Virus record (IMG/VR): IMGVR_UViG_3300001533_001390
Coordinates: 1-20,616 of that record
DNA from: a virus
DNA: 20,616 nucleotides
Direction: 5' to 3' (one strand)
Part shown: positions 490-13,390 of the stretch, one piece after another
Layout: each line of letters starts with the position of its first letter
Numbering within the stretch: the stretch's first letter is position 1
The notes under the pieces: generated by a model
What the model was told of the DNA's origin: nothing
Database searches by the model: none
The model's input: only the letters and a program-made list of their open reading frames with translations
Program-made: the position numbers and the translations under genes

Positions 490-1700
490 TTAGTACACAA
501 TAACGCCCCATTTGCCGATACTGAGTGTATCACCGGCTTTCAGTTCTTTTTGATAAACCGAACACACATTCGCCGCGCCTGCGCCCCATAACGGGAATTC
601 AGCAACGGCGGCTTTAACAAAACCCTGCTTTAGAAGGGTTTTTTCGATGCTGTCGCGATTGCGCTCAGCTACCGGTGTCAGCACATATACAACCCCCGGT
701 TCAATACATTTGGCGGATGCGCCTTTGTCCAGTGAACCGCGGATAAAAAATCTGTCAGTCAACGGTGCTGGAATCTTTGCGAAGTTGTAGCTGCGGTTGT
801 TGAAAATCAGCGCGTTGCTTTTCAGCTGCGCGCTCTCACCCGATTGCACGTCAAGTTTCGCACGCGGGGCAGTGATCAACGGCGCGGCGTCGGCATTGTC
901 TTTCAATGCCAGCTTCTTGTTGCGCTCTTGTTCCATCTTCGCCAGACGCGGGTTCTTGCCGGTTGCGAAGTTGATCAGCACACGCTGACGACCGGCGGAT
1001 GAGTATTCGCCGCGCCGGACATCCTCTTCGCGGAAGGTGGTCATCAGTATGTTTTTGTCGCGTGCGCGTTCCCAGTCATAGATAACGTAGATCGTGCCGT
1101 CAGGTGCCTGGGTTCCATCGGGATATGATACGCTACCGCGTTCGTCAAGCAACAGTCCCCCGATCCAGCTCTCTCCATCGTCCTCCGAGAGGTAGGCGGT
1201 CAGGTGGCTGCGACCGGCACGCTCATTAATGCCGCCGTGCTTGACCAGCAACAGATTGCCCGAAAGCAGACGACGGATATAGAAACGTGAGGTGGTTTGC
1301 GCCAGATAATCTTCGACCTTGCCCCAGGTTTTACCGCCGTCGGTCGAGATTGTGCGCCCGATGCCATGTCCGGCGGTACGGATCAACATCATCAGAGAGC
1401 CGTCCTTGCGTTCCACCAGCATGTGTTCATCGCAGTTGCGCCTTTCCACCGGTAGGTTTGCCGAACCAAGGAAGGAGAAGCTCGCCCCCTGATCCTTTGA
1501 AATCATAACTCCGGTGCCGTAATCGCGCTTTCAGATCGCATTCGGCATCAGCCAGTCGCCGTTTTTCAGCACCAGCGGTTTGTTGATCATAACGCCGGGA
1601 AAGAGCGGACGCGGTTCGCTCCATTTCGGTTTGGCATCGTTCGGATTTTCGGTGGTGATTGACATGGTGACATGCTGACCGAGAAGAACGCTAAGGGGTT
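490..1700 (-). pseudogene. Sialidase (BNR/Asp-box) gene fragment, disrupted by prophage and by an in-frame TGA
   Basis: The open part from 1506 down to 490 codes for 338 residues of the C-terminal half of an exo-sialidase-type six-bladed propeller. Three Asp boxes are visible: SKDQGASF, STDGGKTW and SEDDGESW. Family-typical stretches D-E-H-M-L-V-E-R-K-D-G-S-L and S-Y-P-D-G-T-Q-A-P-D-G-T-I-Y also occur, followed by a C-terminal region of about 120 residues with no clear function. The same frame continues upstream as sialidase (ITTENPNDAKPKWSEPRPLF and VMINKPLVLKNGDW), but a TGA at 1531-1533 interrupts it; a Trp codon may have stood there. Homology stops near 1680, where phage DNA begins, so the N-terminal catalytic part and the start are missing. 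The missing 5' half is expected beyond the right end of the prophage. The exact boundary is uncertain by some tens of bases. Confidence 0.8.
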
Positions 1701-1858: not shown

Positions 1859-2368
1859 TTAATTTGTCATTTTGTCTGCCAGAACGGCAGCACGTTTACC
1901 TCTAAAATAAAACGGACGGCCAGCCGAGGGCAGATCCGAAGATTTAACGCCGTAGTGAGCACAAATGTCATCGACAGAGTTCCCGATAGTAAACATACTT
2001 ATCCGCAACTCATCCACCGTTAGCCCGGTGTAGCTGTCAAACGGCCGAGTAGTAAGTTGCCCGATCGCATAATTAGCCGAAAGCCAGAAAACGTCGGCTG
2101 TTAGACCAAGAAGAATGTGCAGCAGAAGTCGCTGCTCGTTCTGCTCATAGTAACTGACTTTCAGATCATCTTGGGCCAGTATGGCAAAATGAAGCATCAG
2201 CGAGTCAAATCCATTAATTTTAGACACGCGAGACAGGCTGTTAGGCAGTCCGGCCTTAAGCATTTCAGACTTGCGCCATGCGTCAAACGGCTCATCGGGC
2301 TGTTCAACGCTATATGCTGTAGTCGCCAGCCTGAAAAAAGCAACGCGCTGTTTGTTGGTTAAAGGCAT
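1859..2368 (-). CDS. Unknown protein, last gene of early operon (possibly GemA-like position)
   Basis: 169 residues, mostly helical by eye, with no motif I recognise with confidence. The opening LTNKQRVAFFRL and the later KAGLPNSLSRVSKI resemble the start of small phage proteins found beside MuB. In Mu a gene in this general area codes for GemA/gp16 (DUF1018), but the match here is too weak to claim. The ATG overlaps the stop of the ATPase gene by one base (TAATG) and has AGGAG 10 bases upstream, so translation is coupled. The C-terminus is basic (PFYFRGKRAAVLADK), which could suit nucleic-acid contact. Base composition is less GC-rich than that of the transposase gene. Confidence 0.75.
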   Translation of the reverse strand: MPLTNKQRVAFFRLATTAYSVEQPDEPFDAWRKSEMLKAGLPNSLSRVSKINGFDSLMLHFAILAQDDLKVSYYEQNEQRLLLHILLGLTADVFWLSANYAIGQLTTRPFDSYTGLTVDELRISMFTIGNSVDDICAHYGVKSSDLPSAGRPFYFRGKRAAVLADKMTN

Positions 2369-3339
2369 TATTCGACTCCTATATTAACAAGAAGTGAACG
2401 CGCATAGACAAATGCGGCATCGTTGCCGCGTCTGCTCTGTTTCCAGGCAGGTGATTCTGTAAGCCGTATGGCGTGGCTGATCTGTTTTGAGAGACGGCGC
2501 AGATGGCCAGTCTTGAGTACACACTCATAGGCCTGCTTGCGGATATCCTTATAGGCTTCAGGCCACATGGTTTTAACCATCCTATCCGCTGCTGCCTGAA
2601 GCCATGCCTTGACCTCCGGTCTTGTTGTGTCGCTGTCTATGGATTTACAAAGGCCTACGCGGGATGAAAGTGCCGCGTCTGTAAGCAGCCTGGCCATGAT
2701 CTGATCAGGATTGCCAAGGAGAGCGAACGGCGTATGGGTGGCGTCATTGAAATCCATCACCCAGCGTAGGCCGGAGAGGGGCACACGCTGCGCATTATCG
2801 ATGATAATGAGACGGTCTGAGTTTCTTAGCTTACGTTCCAGAAATTCACACTTACCCTCTTTAACCTTCTGCTTTCTGGTATCAAACTTTGAATATAGCA
2901 GTTTTGCTATTCCAAATCGGTTTGCCTTCCATTCAGGAATCTCCACGCGAATGCATGTAGGGTTAAGTTTAGCATACTCTTTTGACGACTCCGTTTTGCC
3001 AAGCCCGGGAGCGCTGTGAATAATCCCGACATCATTTGCCGCACGGATCAGGTCGAACAGGGTGAAGCACTGCTCTGCAGCATAGGTCGGAAAGAACGTG
3101 TTTCGCAGCTGGCGCTTCCGCGTTTCGGCAGCCAGCATATCAAGGACGCTGTCTTCGAATGCAGCCAGGTTACCGACTGGTTTATCTGCTACGTATTGTG
3201 AGACCAGGCTTTCAGAGCATCCCAGCTTTTTACTGACTGCTTTCTGAGTGAGATTGTTATCACTCAGAAAAGTTTCAAGGGCTGTTCTTATTTCTGGGGT
3301 GGCAGCCTTGACCACCGCTGTGTTTGTTTCAGTACTCAT
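2368..3339 (-). CDS. MuB-like transposition ATPase / target activator
   Basis: 323 residues. The N-terminal part (about 16-60) is a Cro/C1-type helix-turn-helix (LTQKAVSKKLGCSESLVSQYV). The AAA+ domain follows with Walker A SAPGLGKT at 109-116, Walker B LIIID at 177-181, a sensor-like LLGN at 207-210 and a likely arginine finger in SSRVG near 226. Mu B has the same HTH plus ATPase plan; it coats target DNA, delivers it to the transposase and gives target immunity through ATP hydrolysis. The start overlaps the transposase stop by 11 bases and has a strong site (AAAGGAAGGCGA) upstream. Being directly downstream of the transposase supports the role. The subfamily (MuB versus TnsC/IstB-like) is less sure. 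Confidence 0.9.
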   Translation of the reverse strand: MSTETNTAVVKAATPEIRTALETFLSDNNLTQKAVSKKLGCSESLVSQYVADKPVGNLAAFEDSVLDMLAAETRKRQLRNTFFPTYAAEQCFTLFDLIRAANDVGIIHSAPGLGKTESSKEYAKLNPTCIRVEIPEWKANRFGIAKLLYSKFDTRKQKVKEGKCEFLERKLRNSDRLIIIDNAQRVPLSGLRWVMDFNDATHTPFALLGNPDQIMARLLTDAALSSRVGLCKSIDSDTTRPEVKAWLQAAADRMVKTMWPEAYKDIRKQAYECVLKTGHLRRLSKQISHAIRLTESPAWKQSRRGNDAAFVYARSLLVNIGVE

Positions 3340-5380
3340 TAGGATCGCCTTCCTTTTGTTGTTTGTTAAAATCGGGGGAGAAGAAGTTGGTTAAATCAAT
3401 GTCTTCAGTCGGCGGTAGCTGTTGGCGAGCCGCTGGGCGGTCTGTAACCATCCGTGCATCCTCAATGAGATGCGCGTTTGATATTTTGAGACTCTCAAGC
3501 ATTAGGCCGTCCTGGGCGTGTCGCTCTCTGAGCGGTGCGTCAACGGCGGCTATGATGCGCTTCTGGGCTTCGATCGCGGTTTCGACCTGCGTGGCGTTAA
3601 TCGGACTGACGGCGTTCCAGGCGGGTACAACGCCGAGTATATCGCCAGTGTCGGCGTCGGCAAGGACGGCTTTTGAATCATCGTATGGCATGGCATACAC
3701 GTATACCTCTGCTCCCGGTGACAGCAAATAGGCATCGCCCCCAGGTGTGAGCACCCGAGATTGGAAACGGAAGCGGCGGCCAGGTTCGATCGTTGCGTCT
3801 TGAAACTCCAGAAGGCCGTTGTCTTTAACGGTCGCCTTGTGACGGTAGGAATCGCCCAGGATTGATGCCACAGCCCAGGGCGGGAGACGGATCAGGTTGT
3901 CCTGGCCGCTCTGCCACACCTCGCGCGGAGACATGCGGCGGGCGCGGATGTGACCGGGTTCGCGGCATGCGGCATGGGCGAGGGCCTGCATTGATTGCGG
4001 CAGATACTGGATATTATCCACGGGCTGCCAGTTTCCGATCCCGTCAATCGAGTATTCGGCTACCATCCAGTTATTGCTCTCGAATCCCTCGCACTGGTGA
4101 TCGGTGCGGTTATAGATGGCGCGGTAGATGTCGGCTACTACGGGACGGTACGCCCAGAATGTCAATGCCGGCATCCAGAGAAGCCGCTGCTGATCAGGCG
4201 ACATCTGCTCCCAGGCCTTGACGATTTCGCGCGCATAGGAGGTTATGCCGTCGAGCTGCTCGGGGCGGTTTGATCTTGAGTTGCCGCCTGTCTGCGCCGG
4301 AAGATAGTCCGCCTGGTGGTGTAGCAGCCGGTGGCTCTGCTCAACTAGAGCCTTTGCCTTGAAGTTACCTTTTCCGGATCCGTCAAACATACCGCGGACA
4401 AGCGAAGCTCCGATGATTTCCGACGTGCGGAATGTTACCTTGCCGTCTGTCAGGCGTTCGATGATCTCGCGCACGTGCGGCCGGACCGCAGCGGTTCCGT
4501 GCTCGAGCACGAACACGCAGCCGTCGCAGTGGTAACCGACGTTGGTCAGGATGTGGCAGACAAGCCAAAGCATTTCGCGCTCTTTCAGACCGGTGCGCGA
4601 TCCGTCCTCGCGCTCCATCTGGCAGGAAAGGCCGTAGGCGGCCTTATAAGTTGAGGCGTAGTCGATCGCGCAGAATTCCAGTGGTCGGGCGAGACCCTTG
4701 TTTATTCCGGGCAGGATAACGGAGACATCATGCCAGACATCATCGAACTGATAAATCATGCCCGGCTGCAGTCCGACACGGGTGGAATACACGGCCGGCA
4801 CGTACTTGTGCGCGGCTTTGACTCCAATCCGCATAATGGCCGCTTCGCGCTTTGACAACTTTGCGTAGTGCTGCATGTTGCGGTAACTCATGCCCTTCGG
4901 GATCCAGCCGAAAGGGCAGCGGCTCGGCGTCGTTAAATTTGGATAACAGGCGTGGAAGATATCTGTCCAGTCGCCGTCGCGCCCGCCGGGGCCGATACCG
5001 GATAGACGCTTGCCGCTCCAGATATCGTGCAGCATGTGCTCGTGTGCCTTCTTGCTTGATCTCTGGTGCTGGCCGCAATAGTGCTTGAACAGTGTGTCGC
5101 ACATCGAGCGCGGTGTCTGGCGGCTGTTTCCGACCTTCGCCCAGTTGACCAAGCTCGTCCACGTGCGTCCGTTGTTGAGCCAGTCGTAGTATTTCGAGCG
5201 CAGGCGGCTGGACGACCAGCCGCGCATCCCGCCCGCGTTGCGGGCGATTTCCTTACATTTGTCAAGCTTGCTGGCGGCAGCGTCGATAATCTCCATCGCT
5301 GATTCCAGCCTGCCGACTTCGGCCTGCACCTCCGCCGGCAGCGAGCCCCATTCGGGGCAGTCGTTTCTGTTGTAGTTCAT
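3329..5380 (-). CDS. MuA-like DDE transposase
   Basis: 683 residues, close to the length of MuA (663). It would bind phage ends and carry out strand cleavage and transfer. The first 200 residues are a basic DNA-binding part with many Trp, Tyr and His. The RNase H-fold core starts near 205: first acid D213 in QFDDVWHD, second position E293 in VLEHGTAAV, third E347 in KAKALVEQSH. From the alignment by eye the second residue, Asp in MuA (D336), is Glu here. After residue about 525 comes the beta-barrel typical of the Mu transposase C-terminal part (PGRRFRFQSRVL, then AEVYVYAMPYDD, then TGDILGVVPAW). The acidic tail (EDIDLTNFF) may contact the ATPase. The ATG has AAAGGAAGGCGA upstream. It is the core enzyme of the element and leaves little doubt about its class. 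Confidence 0.93.
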   Translation of the reverse strand: MNYNRNDCPEWGSLPAEVQAEVGRLESAMEIIDAAASKLDKCKEIARNAGGMRGWSSSRLRSKYYDWLNNGRTWTSLVNWAKVGNSRQTPRSMCDTLFKHYCGQHQRSSKKAHEHMLHDIWSGKRLSGIGPGGRDGDWTDIFHACYPNLTTPSRCPFGWIPKGMSYRNMQHYAKLSKREAAIMRIGVKAAHKYVPAVYSTRVGLQPGMIYQFDDVWHDVSVILPGINKGLARPLEFCAIDYASTYKAAYGLSCQMEREDGSRTGLKEREMLWLVCHILTNVGYHCDGCVFVLEHGTAAVRPHVREIIERLTDGKVTFRTSEIIGASLVRGMFDGSGKGNFKAKALVEQSHRLLHHQADYLPAQTGGNSRSNRPEQLDGITSYAREIVKAWEQMSPDQQRLLWMPALTFWAYRPVVADIYRAIYNRTDHQCEGFESNNWMVAEYSIDGIGNWQPVDNIQYLPQSMQALAHAACREPGHIRARRMSPREVWQSGQDNLIRLPPWAVASILGDSYRHKATVKDNGLLEFQDATIEPGRRFRFQSRVLTPGGDAYLLSPGAEVYVYAMPYDDSKAVLADADTGDILGVVPAWNAVSPINATQVETAIEAQKRIIAAVDAPLRERHAQDGLMLESLKISNAHLIEDARMVTDRPAARQQLPPTEDIDLTNFFSPDFNKQQKEGDPNEY

Positions 5381-5405: not shown

Positions 5406-6095
5406 TTAAACTTCGCGGCGGCGCAGCTCTTTTTTGATCTGCGACACCAGCACGATGTAAGATGAATTGATTGCCTCGAGGGTTTCGGTGTCGAGCATGA
5501 GCCAGTCGTCGTTGATCATCGCGGACTGGGCTTTGCTGATGGCGATGGCCAGAGCGGCGTGCGCGGCATCCTTGCGCTGCGTCTTGGTGAGCTTGCGCTG
5601 CCGGGGCTCGGCGCCGGCCTCGGCGCCGGAGCGCCGATTGCCGAGCTTGTTGTTCAGATACTCCGCAACACCGGCAACCGCCGCCGGGATGTCGCTGTCG
5701 TCCGGGGTGTCCTCGCCGGCGCCCAGCATCAGGCTGTTTTTGGATACGAGCGCGGCGATGCCGTCAGCGTCGTAGTGGCGGAGTTGCTGCCATGCCTGCG
5801 CTGCGCTCATGCCCTTGCGCTCCAGGCAGGTGTTGGCCTCTGCGATATAACGGCGGATTGTGCGCGGATGCCTCTGCGGCATGACATCGGTCACGGCGGC
5901 GGTCCAGTCGCCGTGCGGGCACATCTCGCGGATCGCCGCGAGGCCGATGCAGGCTCTCATCCGGTGGAACTGGCCGACATCGGATTGCTCCAGGTCGCTG
6001 GCTACAACGGCCAGTATGCTGACTGCCTCGTTGGGGATTTCAAACTTGGTAATACCAGTTGTTGCGGCGTCGGGTGTTTTTTTTGATCTTGGCAT
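5406..6095 (-). CDS. DUF3102-like putative regulatory protein
   Basis: 229 residues. The central stretch (HGDWTAAVTDVMPQRHPRTI, then RRYIAEANTCLE) resembles the HG-x-W ... R-T-x-R-R-Y core of DUF3102-type phage proteins, which look like DNA-binding or replication accessory factors. The second half has an acidic, Asp/Pro-rich linker and a Lys/Arg-rich segment (EPRQRKLTKTQRKDAAHAAL) followed by a helical C-terminus. The gene lies between the DUF3164 gene and the transposase, 25 bases before the latter. The upstream site (CAGGAT) is modest. The family assignment is from motif shape only. Confidence 0.7.
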   Translation of the reverse strand: MPRSKKTPDAATTGITKFEIPNEAVSILAVVASDLEQSDVGQFHRMRACIGLAAIREMCPHGDWTAAVTDVMPQRHPRTIRRYIAEANTCLERKGMSAAQAWQQLRHYDADGIAALVSKNSLMLGAGEDTPDDSDIPAAVAGVAEYLNNKLGNRRSGAEAGAEPRQRKLTKTQRKDAAHAALAIAISKAQSAMINDDWLMLDTETLEAINSSYIVLVSQIKKELRRREV

Positions 6096-9014: not shown

Positions 9015-9203
9015 TTATCTACGAATGATTTTAATCCCGAGATCATCAATACGCGTTTGCAGTTTAATGCTGTAGCCGGGATCGCCGGGATCGCTGTTCA
9101 GATGCCTGTTTACATGCGTAGGTGTCACGCCGAGAGCCTTGGCCGCCGCGCTGACGCCCTTCCACTGTTCGATTCTCACTTTTCTGAGTTCAATTTTTGT
9201 CAT
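9015..9203 (-). CDS. Cro/Ner-like small helix-turn-helix protein
   Basis: 62 residues from ATG 9201-9203. The helix-turn-helix is clear: GVSAAAKALGVTPTHVNRHL at about 15-34, followed by a short basic C-terminus (DDLGIKIIRR). As first gene of the leftward operon, divergent from the repressor, it holds the place of Mu Ner or lambda Cro, a small negative regulator that tunes early transcription. The upstream site is weak (GCGGAAAAA). A longer frame reaching 9359 would cross the promoter region and overlap the repressor gene, and is rejected. Confidence 0.8.
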   Translation of the reverse strand: MTKIELRKVRIEQWKGVSAAAKALGVTPTHVNRHLNSDPGDPGYSIKLQTRIDDLGIKIIRR

Positions 9204-9314
9204 TGCTTTTTTTCCGCTTCGGGTGTATTTTCTGAAAAAAGTAGCTCTTACACGTTGTCTTAACTTGGCACTATTAAAAGCTAACTTTTGAGATTGTGCA
9301 AGCGAAAAATTAGA
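9204..9314. promoter_or_regulatory. Divergent early promoter / operator region
   Basis: The 111 bases between the two regulators are AT-rich. On the minus strand TTGCAC (9296-9301) and TTTAAT (9273-9278) are 17 bases apart and form a plausible early promoter. An inverted repeat AAAAG-CTAA-CTTTT (9276-9289) lies between these boxes and would suit an operator. For the rightward repressor a weak TTACAC (9248) with TATTAA (9272) is possible. The palindrome found at 10061-10583 is absent here. Confidence 0.55.
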
Positions 9315-9680
9315 ATGATTGAAAAAAATATAGATTTGGTCAAAAAAGTTAGGAAACAACTGTGTCTTACTCAGGCAGAGCTGGGAAAGCTGCTTGATCT
9401 CGACCGCAACTATATATACATGATGGAAGCCGGCAAAAAGCCGGTTAGCGATAAGACTTTGCGCAAGTTAAATCAGCTAATTAGCGAGATAGAAGGAAAG
9501 ACTAAAAATAAAGATAAGACAAAAAACAGCATGAGAGATTCGCGGCTTGAATACTGCACCGCTGAAGACTACCGCGATGAAAACCGGCGGCTGCACGGAG
9601 TTATAGAAAATCTCCAGAAGGCACTGGATCAGGCACAAACGAATTTAAGCGAAGCGCTTAAAATCATTAACAACGAATAG
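9315..9680 (+). CDS. Phage repressor, XRE/Cro-C1 type with C-terminal coiled coil
   Basis: 121 residues from ATG 9315, preferred over an in-frame TTG at 9288. The helix-turn-helix spans about 18-52: LTQAELGKLLDLDRNYIYMM, then EAGKKPVSDKTLRKL. A Lys-rich linker (GKTKNKDKTKNS) joins it to a predicted coiled coil (YRDENRRLHGVIENLQKALD and onwards) that could serve for dimers. There is no S24 peptidase domain, so RecA-stimulated self-cleavage is not expected; induction would need another route, as in Mu. Its position divergent from the Ner-like gene points to the lysogeny repressor. AT-richer than the late genes. Confidence 0.82.
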   Translation: MIEKNIDLVKKVRKQLCLTQAELGKLLDLDRNYIYMMEAGKKPVSDKTLRKLNQLISEIEGKTKNKDKTKNSMRDSRLEYCTAEDYRDENRRLHGVIENLQKALDQAQTNLSEALKIINNE

Positions 9681-9702: not shown

Positions 9703-10044
9703 ATGAAAACATGCCCAATGTGTTACAGCCAGATAGAAGATGATGCTGTTACGTGCGCAAGCTGTGGCGCGGCGATTATGGCGGATCAACAGCAGCCGTC
9801 GCAGCAGCAGTCGCTCCCGTCGGCAGGCCGCCGCGTGGCCTGCCCGTGGTGCCTCAGCGCGTGCAGCTACGAGCTTTTATATACCGAGCGGCGGGTCTAC
9901 CGCTGCCCGTTCTGCACGAAGGCTTTTGTGCTTAAAAACGGAAAGCCGCAGCGTTCGGACGGCACCAGCGCCGCTGCCAGGGCGCTTGCGTTGATCATCG
10001 CCGCGCTGGTGATACTGCCGGCCATCATCTTCGGGTGCCGATGA
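9703..10044 (+). CDS. Double zinc-ribbon protein with C-terminal membrane anchor
   Basis: 113 residues; ATG 9703 follows TAGGAGAGTGTT. Four CxxC pairs: CPMC and CASC (residues about 4-22) make one zinc ribbon, CPWC and CPFC (about 47-71) a second. A Gln/Ser-rich linker lies between them. The C-terminus AARALALIIAALVILPAIIF is one hydrophobic helix, so the ribbons would sit on the cytoplasmic side. It is co-directional with the repressor and ends before the terminator at 10162, so it is probably expressed in the lysogen. A lysogenic-conversion or exclusion role is possible but not shown. Confidence 0.8.
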   Translation: MKTCPMCYSQIEDDAVTCASCGAAIMADQQQPSQQQSLPSAGRRVACPWCLSACSYELLYTERRVYRCPFCTKAFVLKNGKPQRSDGTSAAARALALIIAALVILPAIIFGCR

Positions 10045-10060: not shown

Positions 10061-10101
10061 AAAACGGACATGATTTTCAAAACGGACACGATGTCCGTTT
10101 T
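10061..10101. promoter_or_regulatory. Palindrome copy 1 with upstream half-site
   Basis: Left arm AAAACGGACA (10079-10088), spacer CGA, right arm TGTCCGTTTT (10092-10101): a perfect 10-bp inverted repeat. A direct half-site with the same ten bases stands at 10061-10070, 18 bases upstream. It lies after the zinc-ribbon gene and before the terminator. Confidence 0.85.
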
Positions 10102-10161
10102 CAATCTGAAAAAATAACGTAATTTCAGGAGCTTGAAAAAGTTTCTTTTTTTTGTGCCTTT

Positions 10162-10190
10162 AAACCGCCTTTAAATTGGGCGGTTTTTTT
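10162..10190 (+). terminator. Terminator of the repressor operon
   Basis: AAACCGCC (10162-10169) pairs with GGCGGTTT (10179-10186) around a 9-base loop and runs into T's up to 10190. It ends rightward transcription from the repressor and zinc-ribbon genes. Confidence 0.88.
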
Positions 10191-10244
10191 GTTGGTGTAT
10201 GCAGTTTTTCTTTCGTGTTTTTCGTGGTTAAAAACACCTCTTCT

Positions 10245-10287
10245 AAAACGGACAAAACTCAAAACGGACATCGTGTCCGTTTTGAGT
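10245..10287. promoter_or_regulatory. Palindrome copy 2 with upstream half-site
   Basis: Arms AAAACGGACA (10261-10270) and TGTCCGTTTT (10274-10283) around TCG. The pairing extends outwards by ACTC/GAGT, giving 14-bp arms (10257-10287). A half-site AAAACGGACA is at 10245-10254, 16 bases upstream, repeating the half-plus-full layout of copy 1. Confidence 0.85.
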
Positions 10288-10335
10288 TTTTAAAAACCGC
10301 TGCATTTTCGCCCTGTATTTACAGGGGTCAAATTC

Positions 10336-10358
10336 AAAACGGACACGATGTCCGTTTT
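10336..10358. promoter_or_regulatory. Palindrome copy 3
   Basis: Arms AAAACGGACA (10336-10345) and TGTCCGTTTT (10349-10358) around CGA. Identical over 23 bases to copy 1. No half-site upstream. Confidence 0.85.
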
Positions 10359-10411
10359 CAAAAACGAGATTTCACTTTTTTCAGCATCTTTTTTAAACCT
10401 ATCCCACGTAT

Positions 10412-10433
10412 ACGCGCGCGGGCGCGTTTTTTT
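10412..10433 (+). terminator. Second rightward intrinsic terminator
   Basis: ACGCGC (10412-10417) and GCGCGT (10422-10427) pair around GCGG, followed by seven T. It has no annotated gene between it and the terminator at 10162-10190, so it would end either read-through or a short non-coding transcript starting near palindromes 2 and 3. Confidence 0.75.
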
Positions 10434-10560
10434 GTATAAATTAGCCCCATGCGAGAGCGCCTTCTCTCACCAAAAAAGGCTTGTCCGGCCTCTCCGTGTT
10501 TTCGCCTTCCCGGAGAGCGCCGGAACCCACTTGTTTTTTATGGTTTTACAATTGGTTTTA

Positions 10561-10583
10561 AAAACGGACAGCGTGTCCGATTT
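10561..10583. promoter_or_regulatory. Palindrome copy 4, directly upstream of the late operon
   Basis: Left arm AAAACGGACA (10561-10570), spacer GCG, right arm TGTCCGATTT with one change. It ends 19 bases before the ATG at 10603 and only a few bases before its CAGGAG site, so a bound protein would cover or border the late leader. Confidence 0.8.
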
Positions 10584-10602: not shown

Positions 10603-10920
10603 ATGTCCCCGGAAAACCTCGCAAATGCTCAAAGCTACGTCGCCGTGATTATTGTAATTGCTTTTATTTTGATGCTGGTTAACAGCGTCATAAACCTGGT
10701 TGATAAGTTCCGCCCGAAGTCGTCCAGCGAAAACCTCGACGCGCGCATAACCGCGCTGGAAAGTGCCGTGTCTGAAATCAAAACATCGTGCACAACCTGC
10801 AAGAACGAATATCTCACGAAGATCGGCGAGATTCATGAGAAGATCAACGGCGTAAAAAGCTCCGTCGATCTGCTTACAGGAGAGCTGCAGGCCTACCGCA
10901 GGCTGGAGGGCAAACAATGA
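10603..10920 (+). CDS. DUF2730-like membrane-anchored coiled-coil protein (Mu gp25-like)
   Basis: 105 residues. The ATG at 10603 has CAGGAG upstream. One membrane helix at about 12-33 (YVAVIIVIAFILMLVNSVIN) is followed by a long coiled coil (LDARITALESAVSEIKTSCT, then EIHEKINGVKSSVDLLTGEL). This is the plan of DUF2730 proteins, which stand just before the gp26/gp27 genes in Mu-like phages. A CTTC motif interrupts the coiled coil. Its end overlaps the next start as ATGA. The function of the family is unknown; lysis or morphogenesis roles have been suggested for genes in this region, but nothing here decides it. Confidence 0.75.
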   Translation: MSPENLANAQSYVAVIIVIAFILMLVNSVINLVDKFRPKSSSENLDARITALESAVSEIKTSCTTCKNEYLTKIGEIHEKINGVKSSVDLLTGELQAYRRLEGKQ

Positions 10921-11327: not shown

Positions 11328-11909
11328 ATGAGAAAACCGAGAACAGATAGCCCCCTGGCAAAATGGAACGACGAAGCTCACCGCCCGCAGTGCGACGAGC
11401 TTTATTCCATCCTCCGCACGTCAACCTATGCCGAGGCCGTAAAGTGGCTGGAAGAAACGCACGGCATAATAACCAGCGTCGGCGGCCTCTCTCGCTGGTA
11501 TAAGCGGCAGAATAAAAAACGCCTCCGTGAACGCCTCCGCGACTCGATTGCCACCTCCAAGGTGTTTGACAAAAAGGTGGATGCTGCGGTTATCGACGGC
11601 CGCATGGGTACGGCATTGCAGTCTCTGTTTTTCGCAGCGGTATCAACAGGAGATACGAAAGCAATCCTTGAGTTTGCGGACGCCGCCATGGAGCACAGTA
11701 AATCACAGCGCGAAGAAACCAAACTCGAACGCACTTTGAAAGCCGAGCGCGAAGCCCGCACACTGCGCGAAGAGCTCGGCCACGCCAACGCACAGATCGA
11801 AGAGCTGCGCCTCGCCCTTGCCAATATCGGCAGGGTCAACCAGGCAGACCCCGCCGAAGTCATGGCAAAGGTTGACGAATTCCTAGGAGTAAAGAAACCC
11901 AGCAAATGA
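11328..11909 (+). CDS. Small terminase subunit, Mu gp27-like (DUF3486)
   Basis: 193 residues. An N-terminal helix-turn-helix region (TYAEAVKWLEETHGIITSVG, then GLSRWYKRQ) is followed by a basic patch (NKKRLRERLRDS) and a long helical region with a coiled coil (EREARTLREELGHANAQIEE). This is the DUF3486 layout and the place directly before the large terminase agrees. In Mu the small subunit recognises the packaging end of phage DNA. The ATG at 11328 is preceded by TTTAACC and not by a Shine-Dalgarno; the structured leader may matter. The stop overlaps the next start as ATGA. Confidence 0.85.
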   Translation: MRKPRTDSPLAKWNDEAHRPQCDELYSILRTSTYAEAVKWLEETHGIITSVGGLSRWYKRQNKKRLRERLRDSIATSKVFDKKVDAAVIDGRMGTALQSLFFAAVSTGDTKAILEFADAAMEHSKSQREETKLERTLKAEREARTLREELGHANAQIEELRLALANIGRVNQADPAEVMAKVDEFLGVKKPSK

Positions 11910-13390
11910 ACGCCGCAGAACATATAGAGCAGATCGAACGTGAGTCCTACTTCCTGCCATACCAGGAAGCATGGATCGCGGATAATTCCACTTTGAAGCT
12001 TGCGGAAAAATCCCGCCGCGTGGGATTTACCTTTGCAAGCTCATACCGCATGTTCCGAAAGTGCATGATGCGCCCCGGCCTCACGCAGTGGGTAAGTTCA
12101 AAAGACCAGCTTACAGCCCGCGAGCTGATAACCGACTACATAGCCAAATGGTGCAAGCTCTCCAACATCATAGCCGAGGGATTGTACGGCGACAATATCC
12201 AGGTTATAGACCCGGAAAAAAATATAACTGCTTTTGTTTGCGTTTTCCCCAACGGGTCCCGCATTGTTTCGTTATCTTCCAACCCGGCGGCCTTTGCCGG
12301 AAAGGGCGGCGACGTGTTTCTCGACGAGGTCGACCTGCACCTCGACAGCGCAACCCTCATCGACATGGCAATACCCTGCATTATGTGGGGTAATCAGCTG
12401 GAGGCAGTGTCCGCCTATAAAGTCAACGGAACCAAGGAAACGCCGTGGGCAAAGATGATCGCCAAGGCCAAGGAGGGCGACAATCCGCAGGGCGCAAGCC
12501 TGCATACGGTTACTATAGACGACGGCATAGACCAGGGCCTTGTCGAAAAAATAAACTCCGTTTCAGGATCGGATATGACCCGACAGGAGTTCCGCAAAAA
12601 AATGCGCTCACTCTGCCGCAGCCTCGCCGCCTGGGAGTCGCAGTTCCTTTGCATTGTTCAGGACGCGGGCGGCAAGCTCATACCTATATCTAAAATTACA
12701 CCGTGCGAAATGTCCGCCGCCGACCTTGCACTTATGATCGCCAAATATTCCAACGCTCCGCGCTTCGGCGGCTATGACGTGGCACGCAAACAGCATGCCT
12801 CCGCGTGGCATGAATATGCGCAGATCGGCAACGGCTTATACCTCGCCGACCGGCAGACCTGGCACGATGCATCTTTCGACGACCAAGAGGCCTGGATAAA
12901 GTCGCGCGTGACCGACCGCAACAAGCCGCGTATTTCCAGAATGGCAATGGACGCAACCGGCCTCGGAATGCAGATGGCCGAACGCATGGCGGACAAGTTC
13001 CCCGGACGCGTGGACCAGGTTAACCTCGAAAGCCACCGCCGCACCGAGCTCTGCGTTATGCTCGCCGACCGTTTCGAGAACCAGCGCATATTCCTGCCGG
13101 AGGACGACCAGCTACGCGCCGATATGTCCGGGCCCCTCCGCGCCGCCGCCAAAAACGGAGCCTTGCGAATTATCGTGCCTGCATTTGATTATCAGAATAA
13201 AGACACCGGCGAAACTGAAACAAGCCATTGCGACGAATTTATGGCCGCCGTTTTGGCCAACTCCGCCGCAGACGTCGGAGCCTCCGGCAGTGATTTTGAA
13301 ATTATAACCGGAACCGCAATACCGCCCGCCTTTAACTTTTCCGGGCTCGGCGGTTACTCCGGCAGCATATCCGACAGAAGGGCTCTCTAA
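11906..13390 (+). CDS. Large terminase subunit, Mu gp28-like
   Basis: 494 residues, the packaging motor and headful nuclease. The ATPase part shows an adenine-binding start (FLPYQEAWIADNS), a deviant Walker A KSRRVGFT at 35-42, and Walker B with catalytic Glu VFLDEVD at 137-143. The nuclease part has metal-binding Asp in FGGYDVARKQHAS (D291) and MAMDATG (D349), plus HCDE near 440. Lys/Arg before the GFT is usual in this subfamily. The four-base overlap with the small subunit gene fits coupled synthesis. Confidence 0.92.
   Translation: MNAAEHIEQIERESYFLPYQEAWIADNSTLKLAEKSRRVGFTFASSYRMFRKCMMRPGLTQWVSSKDQLTARELITDYIAKWCKLSNIIAEGLYGDNIQVIDPEKNITAFVCVFPNGSRIVSLSSNPAAFAGKGGDVFLDEVDLHLDSATLIDMAIPCIMWGNQLEAVSAYKVNGTKETPWAKMIAKAKEGDNPQGASLHTVTIDDGIDQGLVEKINSVSGSDMTRQEFRKKMRSLCRSLAAWESQFLCIVQDAGGKLIPISKITPCEMSAADLALMIAKYSNAPRFGGYDVARKQHASAWHEYAQIGNGLYLADRQTWHDASFDDQEAWIKSRVTDRNKPRISRMAMDATGLGMQMAERMADKFPGRVDQVNLESHRRTELCVMLADRFENQRIFLPEDDQLRADMSGPLRAAAKNGALRIIVPAFDYQNKDTGETETSHCDEFMAAVLANSAADVGASGSDFEIITGTAIPPAFNFSGLGGYSGSISDRRAL

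Follow-up and report, generated by a model that had tools for sequence, protein, structure and literature searches.

Palindromes set in a series between the lysogeny and late gene blocks of a prophage raise the question of which protein reads them, and what its binding is for. The prophage examined here resides in the window, by which we mean the whole stretch of viral DNA analysed, a virus record of 20,616 bases. The left part of the window is host DNA, and the rest is a Mu-like prophage, whose left end is probably located near positions 1700-1850. A BNR/sialidase-like gene (490-1506, minus strand) was noticed in this left part (1-1850). Transposase A, a MuB-like ATPase and Mu-type head genes occur together in the element, which places it among the Mu/B3-like transposable phages. 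Matches include PHROG 310, AAA_22, Portal_Mu, Mu-like_Pro and Phage_Mu_Gp36, and a DUF3164 protein is encoded as well. A near-perfect inverted repeat (TTTCTGAGTGA...TCACTCAGAAA) is found at 3241-3270, at the start of the MuB-like gene.

The coordinates of the features discussed are collected in the table. A motif scan recovered the four 23-bp palindromes described in an earlier note on this DNA, three perfect and one with a single change, and the two direct half-sites reported 16-18 bases upstream of two copies were found before copies 1 and 2. The two terminators said to be interleaved with the palindromes correspond to terminator-like hairpins. Beyond the four copies no further AAAACGGACA-N3-TGTCCGTTTT sequence is present in the window, allowing up to three mismatches, and none arose by chance in 100 dinucleotide shuffles. 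The end of copy 4 is separated by 20 bases from the ATG at 10604. The array lies ~8.4-8.9 kb from the left prophage end, which is about a quarter of a ~33 kb genome, taking the size from the 32.8-kb contig of the related locus L046. The view that these look like protein-binding sites placed between lysogeny and late blocks is supported.

Table. Features of the window relevant to the palindrome array
Feature	Coordinates	Strand	Basis
MuB-like AAA ATPase	2368..3339	-	PF13401
Mu-like transposase A; same operon as 5406-6095, and downstream of it	3329..5380	-	PHROG 310 transposase; relatives
DUF3102-like protein, 229 aa, probable array binder; recognition helix with R81-R82	5406..6095	-	profile match; alignment
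CI-like repressor (HTH_3); considered not to bind the array	9315..9680	+	domain match; comparison of relatives' repressors
Small zinc-ribbon protein, upstream of the array	9703..10044	+	domain match
Extra direct half-site, starting 18 bases before copy 1	10061..10070	+	
Palindrome copy 1, AAAACGGACA-CGA-TGTCCGTTTT, perfect	10079..10101		motif scan
Terminator-like hairpin (10162-10186) and its T run; lies between palindromes 1 and 2	10162..10193	+	
Extra direct half-site, starting 16 bases before copy 2	10245..10254	+	
Palindrome copy 2, perfect; arms extend to 17 bp (10254-10290)	10261..10283		motif scan
Palindrome copy 3, perfect	10336..10358		motif scan
Terminator-like hairpin (10412-10427) and its T run; lies between palindromes 3 and 4	10412..10434	+	
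Palindrome copy 4, with a single change; immediately precedes the ribosome-binding site of the first late gene	10561..10583		
First late-block gene, downstream of copy 4	10604..10920	+	PHROG 736, unknown function
Large terminase; query for finding related prophages	11906..13390	+	PF17289

Searches with the terminase and the DUF3102-like protein identified a group formed by L046 and by prophages in the genomes G211, G284, G477 and G492. Searches for the exact arms were misleading, as the arms change between relatives, and homology combined with a palindrome scan was the approach that worked. Related prophages share the location of the palindrome array with the window, but differ in its arms. 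L046 (TerL 76% in alignment) has four palindromes built around TGGCAATGCATTGCCA, with TGGCAA arms and spacers of 3 and 4 bases mixed within one array, and copy 4 sits again just before the late gene. At least 10 palindromes with three inner sequences form one array in G211, two of them directly before start codons, in gaps of the late operon. G492 has four palindromes of the GTCTCAC type adjoining the repressor gene, G284 two (GTGAAA), G477 a single one (TGGCCA) at a contig end. A more distant relative (L093, 5588-7567) contains three related palindromes (CCCCGCCACG/CGTGGCGGGG). The perfect palindrome with 71-bp arms at a contig end of L222 (1-142) is probably an assembly artefact.

The earlier note would have abandoned the idea of a phage-specific site had the motif been scattered as a repeat in the host chromosome, or had the arms not been conserved in related prophages. 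The first check was run in the genomes of two relatives, and the corresponding palindromes are confined to the prophage: all four found in the 4.5 Mb of G492, and all six found under the pattern used in the 5.2 Mb of G211, where they reside on contig C118. As to the second, the arms do differ, array and position are kept, and the changes follow the recognition helix of the DUF3102-like protein; taking the lack of conserved arms as a refutation would have misled. The helix reads PRTIRRYI in the window, PRTIRGYM in L046, PRTLQTYM in G211, PRSLRRYY in G477, RSTLFRYM in G492 and SRTADNYM in G284. The GTCTCA sequence of G492 is seen again in a ParB-type locus (L246), along with an RSTINR helix.

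Sites of the same class recur in other phages. An exact motif scan retrieved 11 virus contigs and 29 stretches in bacterial genomes. Many bacterial matches resemble terminators, and those in L016, L018-L022 and similar stretches were left out as chance hairpins with T runs. ACGGACA palindromes occur also in Clostridia genomes (L017, L024 and, twice, L025) with no obvious phage context. A distinct group of matches lies in frame inside DUF3102-like or ParB-like genes, and encodes the peptide KTDxxSVL. When spacers of 1-9 were allowed, in-gene sites were found too whose spacers measured 2, 3 or 4 bases and whose reading frames were shifted, and many of the contigs with the in-gene motif encode Mu-like transposases, MuB or DUF3164 proteins. 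As an example, the DUF3102 gene of Pseudomonas phage B3 (B3ORF13), which directly precedes the transposase gene, contains a perfect palindrome of 26 bp, CAAAACGGACAACGTTGTCCGTTTTG, whose arms are those of the window palindromes. In Microcystis phage Mae-JY22 the DUF3102 gene holds CAAAACGGGCGGCGCCGCCCGTTTTG once, and a nuclease-like gene located downstream of the repressor region holds two near-identical copies, both in frame (L178, 8585-8608 and 8630-8653, peptides SKRAAPPVL and EKRAAPPVL). Other inner sequences occupy the same place in the DUF3102 genes of PhiKM and KP12. In another B3-like prophage (L162, 685-900, minus strand) a remnant of a second DUF3102-like gene lies beside two extra palindromes.

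Eighty DUF3102-like loci from IMG/VR, pooled with those collected earlier, gave 98 genes and 59 distinct best sites. Most of the 98 genes host a dyad of 24-26 bp (CAAA...TTTG) in a constant position, directly following the HTH, with inner bases that vary widely. In a subset of 60 genes, paired positions in the dyad number 11.4 out of 12.45, and fall to 6.2 when codons are shuffled synonymously, and the dyad beats all 200 shuffles in 41 genes. Clear dyads are missing in the DUF3102 genes L089, L099 and L166, and are weak in L088 and L113. Variable positions carry alternative Watson-Crick pairs, and the central step is usually symmetric too, a pattern that favours a DNA dyad over an RNA hairpin. 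On the coding strand A-C mismatches are frequent, most of which seem to stem from a single group of related phages; the kinds of mismatch are therefore not decisive by themselves. The encoded peptide KTDxxSVL was discarded as the cause of the pattern because frame, position and spacing of the sites differ (L009, L055, L052, L026), and because an unrelated gene of Mae-JY22 contains two in-frame copies of the same palindrome. Ends or remnants of insertion sequences were discarded as well, as the sites are embedded in coding or regulatory surroundings that are conserved, and no IS lies in the vicinity.

Covariation points to the probable reader. Mutual information was calculated between site bases and the columns of 58 DUF3102 proteins, 45 transposases and 51 upstream regulators, setting aside the linker columns encoded by the site itself, whose high scores are trivial. 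The top remaining columns fall in the recognition helix (residues 96, 98, 99, 101 and 102 of the B3-like DUF3102 protein L052; z 8 to 18), with maxima of z 5.4 for the transposase and 5.0 for the upstream regulator. Of 12 independent R/Q differences placed on a transposase tree, about 11 agree with CG/GC differences and none opposes (p ~0.001); on a DUF3102 tree built without the covarying columns about 9 of 9 agree. The pattern can be put as a rule. In the first position R goes with CGG, and Q or E with GCG/ACG; in the next one R goes with ACA/CCA, and K with AAT/AAC. CGGACA is found with 11 of the 21 RR proteins, and with none of the other 37; the window couples an RR protein to a CGGACA array. 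In sets not used to derive the rule, namely ParB_N proteins of Mu-like phages and the group of the window itself, R goes with GG in 10/10 and Q/E with CG in 7/7 instances (Fisher p 5e-5), a count in which several members are relatives of one another, and the contigs of two (L224, L241) were originally picked up by the CGGACA pattern. Neither G477, which has an RR helix and TGGCCA, nor L046, which has R-G and TGGCAA, fits the rule in full. Half-site spacing varies by 1 bp between sites, even within L046.

The window protein has no Pfam match and is only remotely similar to the DUF3102 family; compared by profiles with the B3-like DUF3102 family, it aligns over the HTH with probability 92.8 and E 4e-7. 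In turn, 44 of the 47 members of that family match PF11300, and members match DUF3102 only, apart from stray single matches. A Pfam scan found no ParB_N (PF02195) CTPase domain in the window protein, and no ParA was seen among the 20 window genes scanned, the record being partial. The structural model of the window protein itself is poor (pLDDT 59). The AlphaFold model of L052 reaches pLDDT 90, and its covarying residues lie on or adjoining the helix 97-110. Residues 43-177 match ParB, Spo0J and Noc DNA complexes (Z 7.3-7.9), and KorB (1r71, Z 4.9). Plant and cyanobacterial Raf1 score level with ParB/Noc, such Z values are common according to the tool, and Foldseek E exceeds 1; the fold alone is thus not proof of ParB kinship. 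A sequence search of the PDB returned coiled-coil matches only. The cognate palindromic site typical of the ParB/KorB superfamily is suggested by the covariation, and we infer from these comparisons that 5406-6095 encodes a ParB/KorB-type binder devoid of the ParB CTPase domain.

Same-class sites recur, dyads are kept while their sequence changes, and the helix covaries with them; the palindromes are therefore, as far as sequences can tell, very probably sites of the DUF3102-like protein. The four palindromes and the two half-sites would together form a multi-copy operator array of the protein encoded at 5406-6095 on the minus strand, an interpretation which we consider probable. The binders proposed in the earlier note (the genes at 9015, 6936 and 10917, and the repressor) leave out this candidate. 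The DUF3102-like protein would be an early-operon product with a ParB/KorB-type HTH, its gene immediately preceding that of the transposase. Each half-site, AAAA-CGGACA, would engage one recognition helix, R81 pairing with CGG and R82 with ACA. Judging from its position, the occupied array may block or gate the passage of transcription out of the lysogeny genes into the late operon, and copy 4, at the start of the first late gene, would be the positional basis for late gating. In B3-like phages the single in-gene site may feed back on the DUF3102-transposase operon. The array would thus control late transcription and, in B3-like phages, the corresponding site that of the transposase.

The same protein might bind the array to a different end, as a parS-like site, or as a site of synapsis or condensation coupled to replicative transposition. 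Such a role, the main alternative, is possible, if rather doubtful. It would agree with the ParB/Noc-like fold modelled for the B3-like member, with the proximity of binder and transposase genes in the window and in B3-like phages, matched by a ParB homologue in roseophages (PMC5488378), and with the same kind of in-gene site in phages with ParB domains. Yet the Pfam scan of the window protein and the window genes scanned yielded neither ParB_N nor ParA, and sites set between terminators and just before late genes fit transcription better. A 'partition-like' site, among the roles suggested in the earlier note, was a good guess at the class of protein; a gyrase-type central site is not supported, because the copies are several and lie about a quarter of the genome from the left end. 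Gyrase, or a late activator unrelated to DUF3102, would suit the position before the late block. However, each phage has its own arms, which covary with the DUF3102-like helix, and copy 4 is too near the start codon for a classical activator site, which makes both most unlikely.

Operators or stoperators of the CI-like immunity repressor would explain why the palindromes flank the repressor operon, and why the arms differ between related phages, like immunity specificities. Nevertheless, the repressors of G284 and G492 are 66% identical, with the same HTH, and share the early operator TTATACA-N3-TGTATAA, though the arrays are AAATGTGAAA and AAAAGTCTCAC, respectively. A common HTH and early operator with different arrays exclude the repressor. 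In the window, as anticipated in the earlier note, neither the array motif nor anything similar was found in the early operator region (9204-9314), and the palindromes are, in line with that note, not the repressor operator; we regard the opposite as extremely improbable. RNA hairpins, acting as terminators, attenuators or mRNA 5' stems, could be invoked for copies 2 and 4, which on the minus strand pass a simple one-strand scan for intrinsic terminators, defined as G+C-rich hairpins having a free loop and then a T run, and copy 4 falls where the 5' leader of the first late gene is expected. But T runs after the stems are short, the even-length sites of relatives are mostly symmetric through the centre and hence loopless, G-T pairs make up only 11% of the dyad mismatches on the coding strand, and covariation with a DNA-recognition helix would be left unexplained; the RNA reading has little chance of being correct. 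It is hardly more credible that the palindromes are end-like or enhancer sites for the transposase, as their vicinity to its gene in B3-like phages could suggest, because neither CGGACA nor TGTCCG occurs in the first 300 bases of B3, the in-gene site is the sole palindromic copy in the B3 genome, and transposase columns covary at background level only.

Having preferred an operator array of the DUF3102-like protein, we lean, with some reserve, towards a broader scenario. Transposable phages of several bacterial phyla would host ParB/KorB-like regulators, in DUF3102 and ParB_N variants, obeying a shared helix-base rule. In B3-like phages the operator would lie in frame in the gene of its binder, specificity and site making up one cassette; in the group of the window the sites would have moved out, and multiplied into the lysogeny-late array. 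Palindromic operators of ParB-type proteins are already known. In open-licence papers, we found neither a DNA target for DUF3102/PHROG 1748, nor the helix-base rule, nor an in-frame operator in the gene of the binder, and nothing relevant on DUF3102 or B3 together with palindromes. A DNA target and a mechanism class can be proposed for a family (PF11300, PHROG 1748) listed as unknown in Pfam and PHROGs, and present even in the long-studied phage B3. The rule allows prediction of operators from protein sequence in uncultured phages, and the dyads appear to be a DNA operator maintained inside a coding sequence through compensatory codon changes.

Known systems resemble the array to different extents. 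The strong gyrase site of Mu is single and near the genome centre, unlike the window sites. Cluster A mycobacteriophages carry stoperators, asymmetric sites of the immunity repressor (PMC9283540). As in that case, several protein sites are spread across the prophage, some in short gaps before genes; unlike L5-type stoperators, the window sites are symmetric, and the repressor is excluded as their reader. In roseophages vB_ThpS-P1 and vB_PeaS-P1 a ParB homologue is encoded upstream of a Mu-like transposase, and the searched passages of PMC5488378 mention no DNA target for it. Gene position is the same as in the window, and IMG/VR relatives of the roseophage proteins show the same in-gene dyad and helix-base rule; in contrast to the window protein, the roseophage homologues carry ParB_N. 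ParB/Spo0J-parS and Noc-NBS are comparable for the fold of L052 (residues 43-177) and for the palindromic cognate site, and differ from the phage system in that no CTPase domain or ParA was found in the latter, and its sites diverge between related phages. Spo0J cognate sites, too, are sometimes located within the gene of the binder. The nearest working analogue is KorB of plasmid RK2 with its scattered OB operators. KorB, a member of the ParB superfamily, carries a CTPase clamp at its N terminus, has KorA as its partner, and gates transcription through OB sites of 16 bp (PMC11790492). The window protein showed no ParB_N domain, and the phage dyads are longer (23-26 bp), tolerate 1 bp of spacing play, and in relatives lie inside the gene of the binder. 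Common to both systems would be a ParB-type DNA-binding domain, and several copies of a short operator placed, within a mobile element, near the genes to be regulated.
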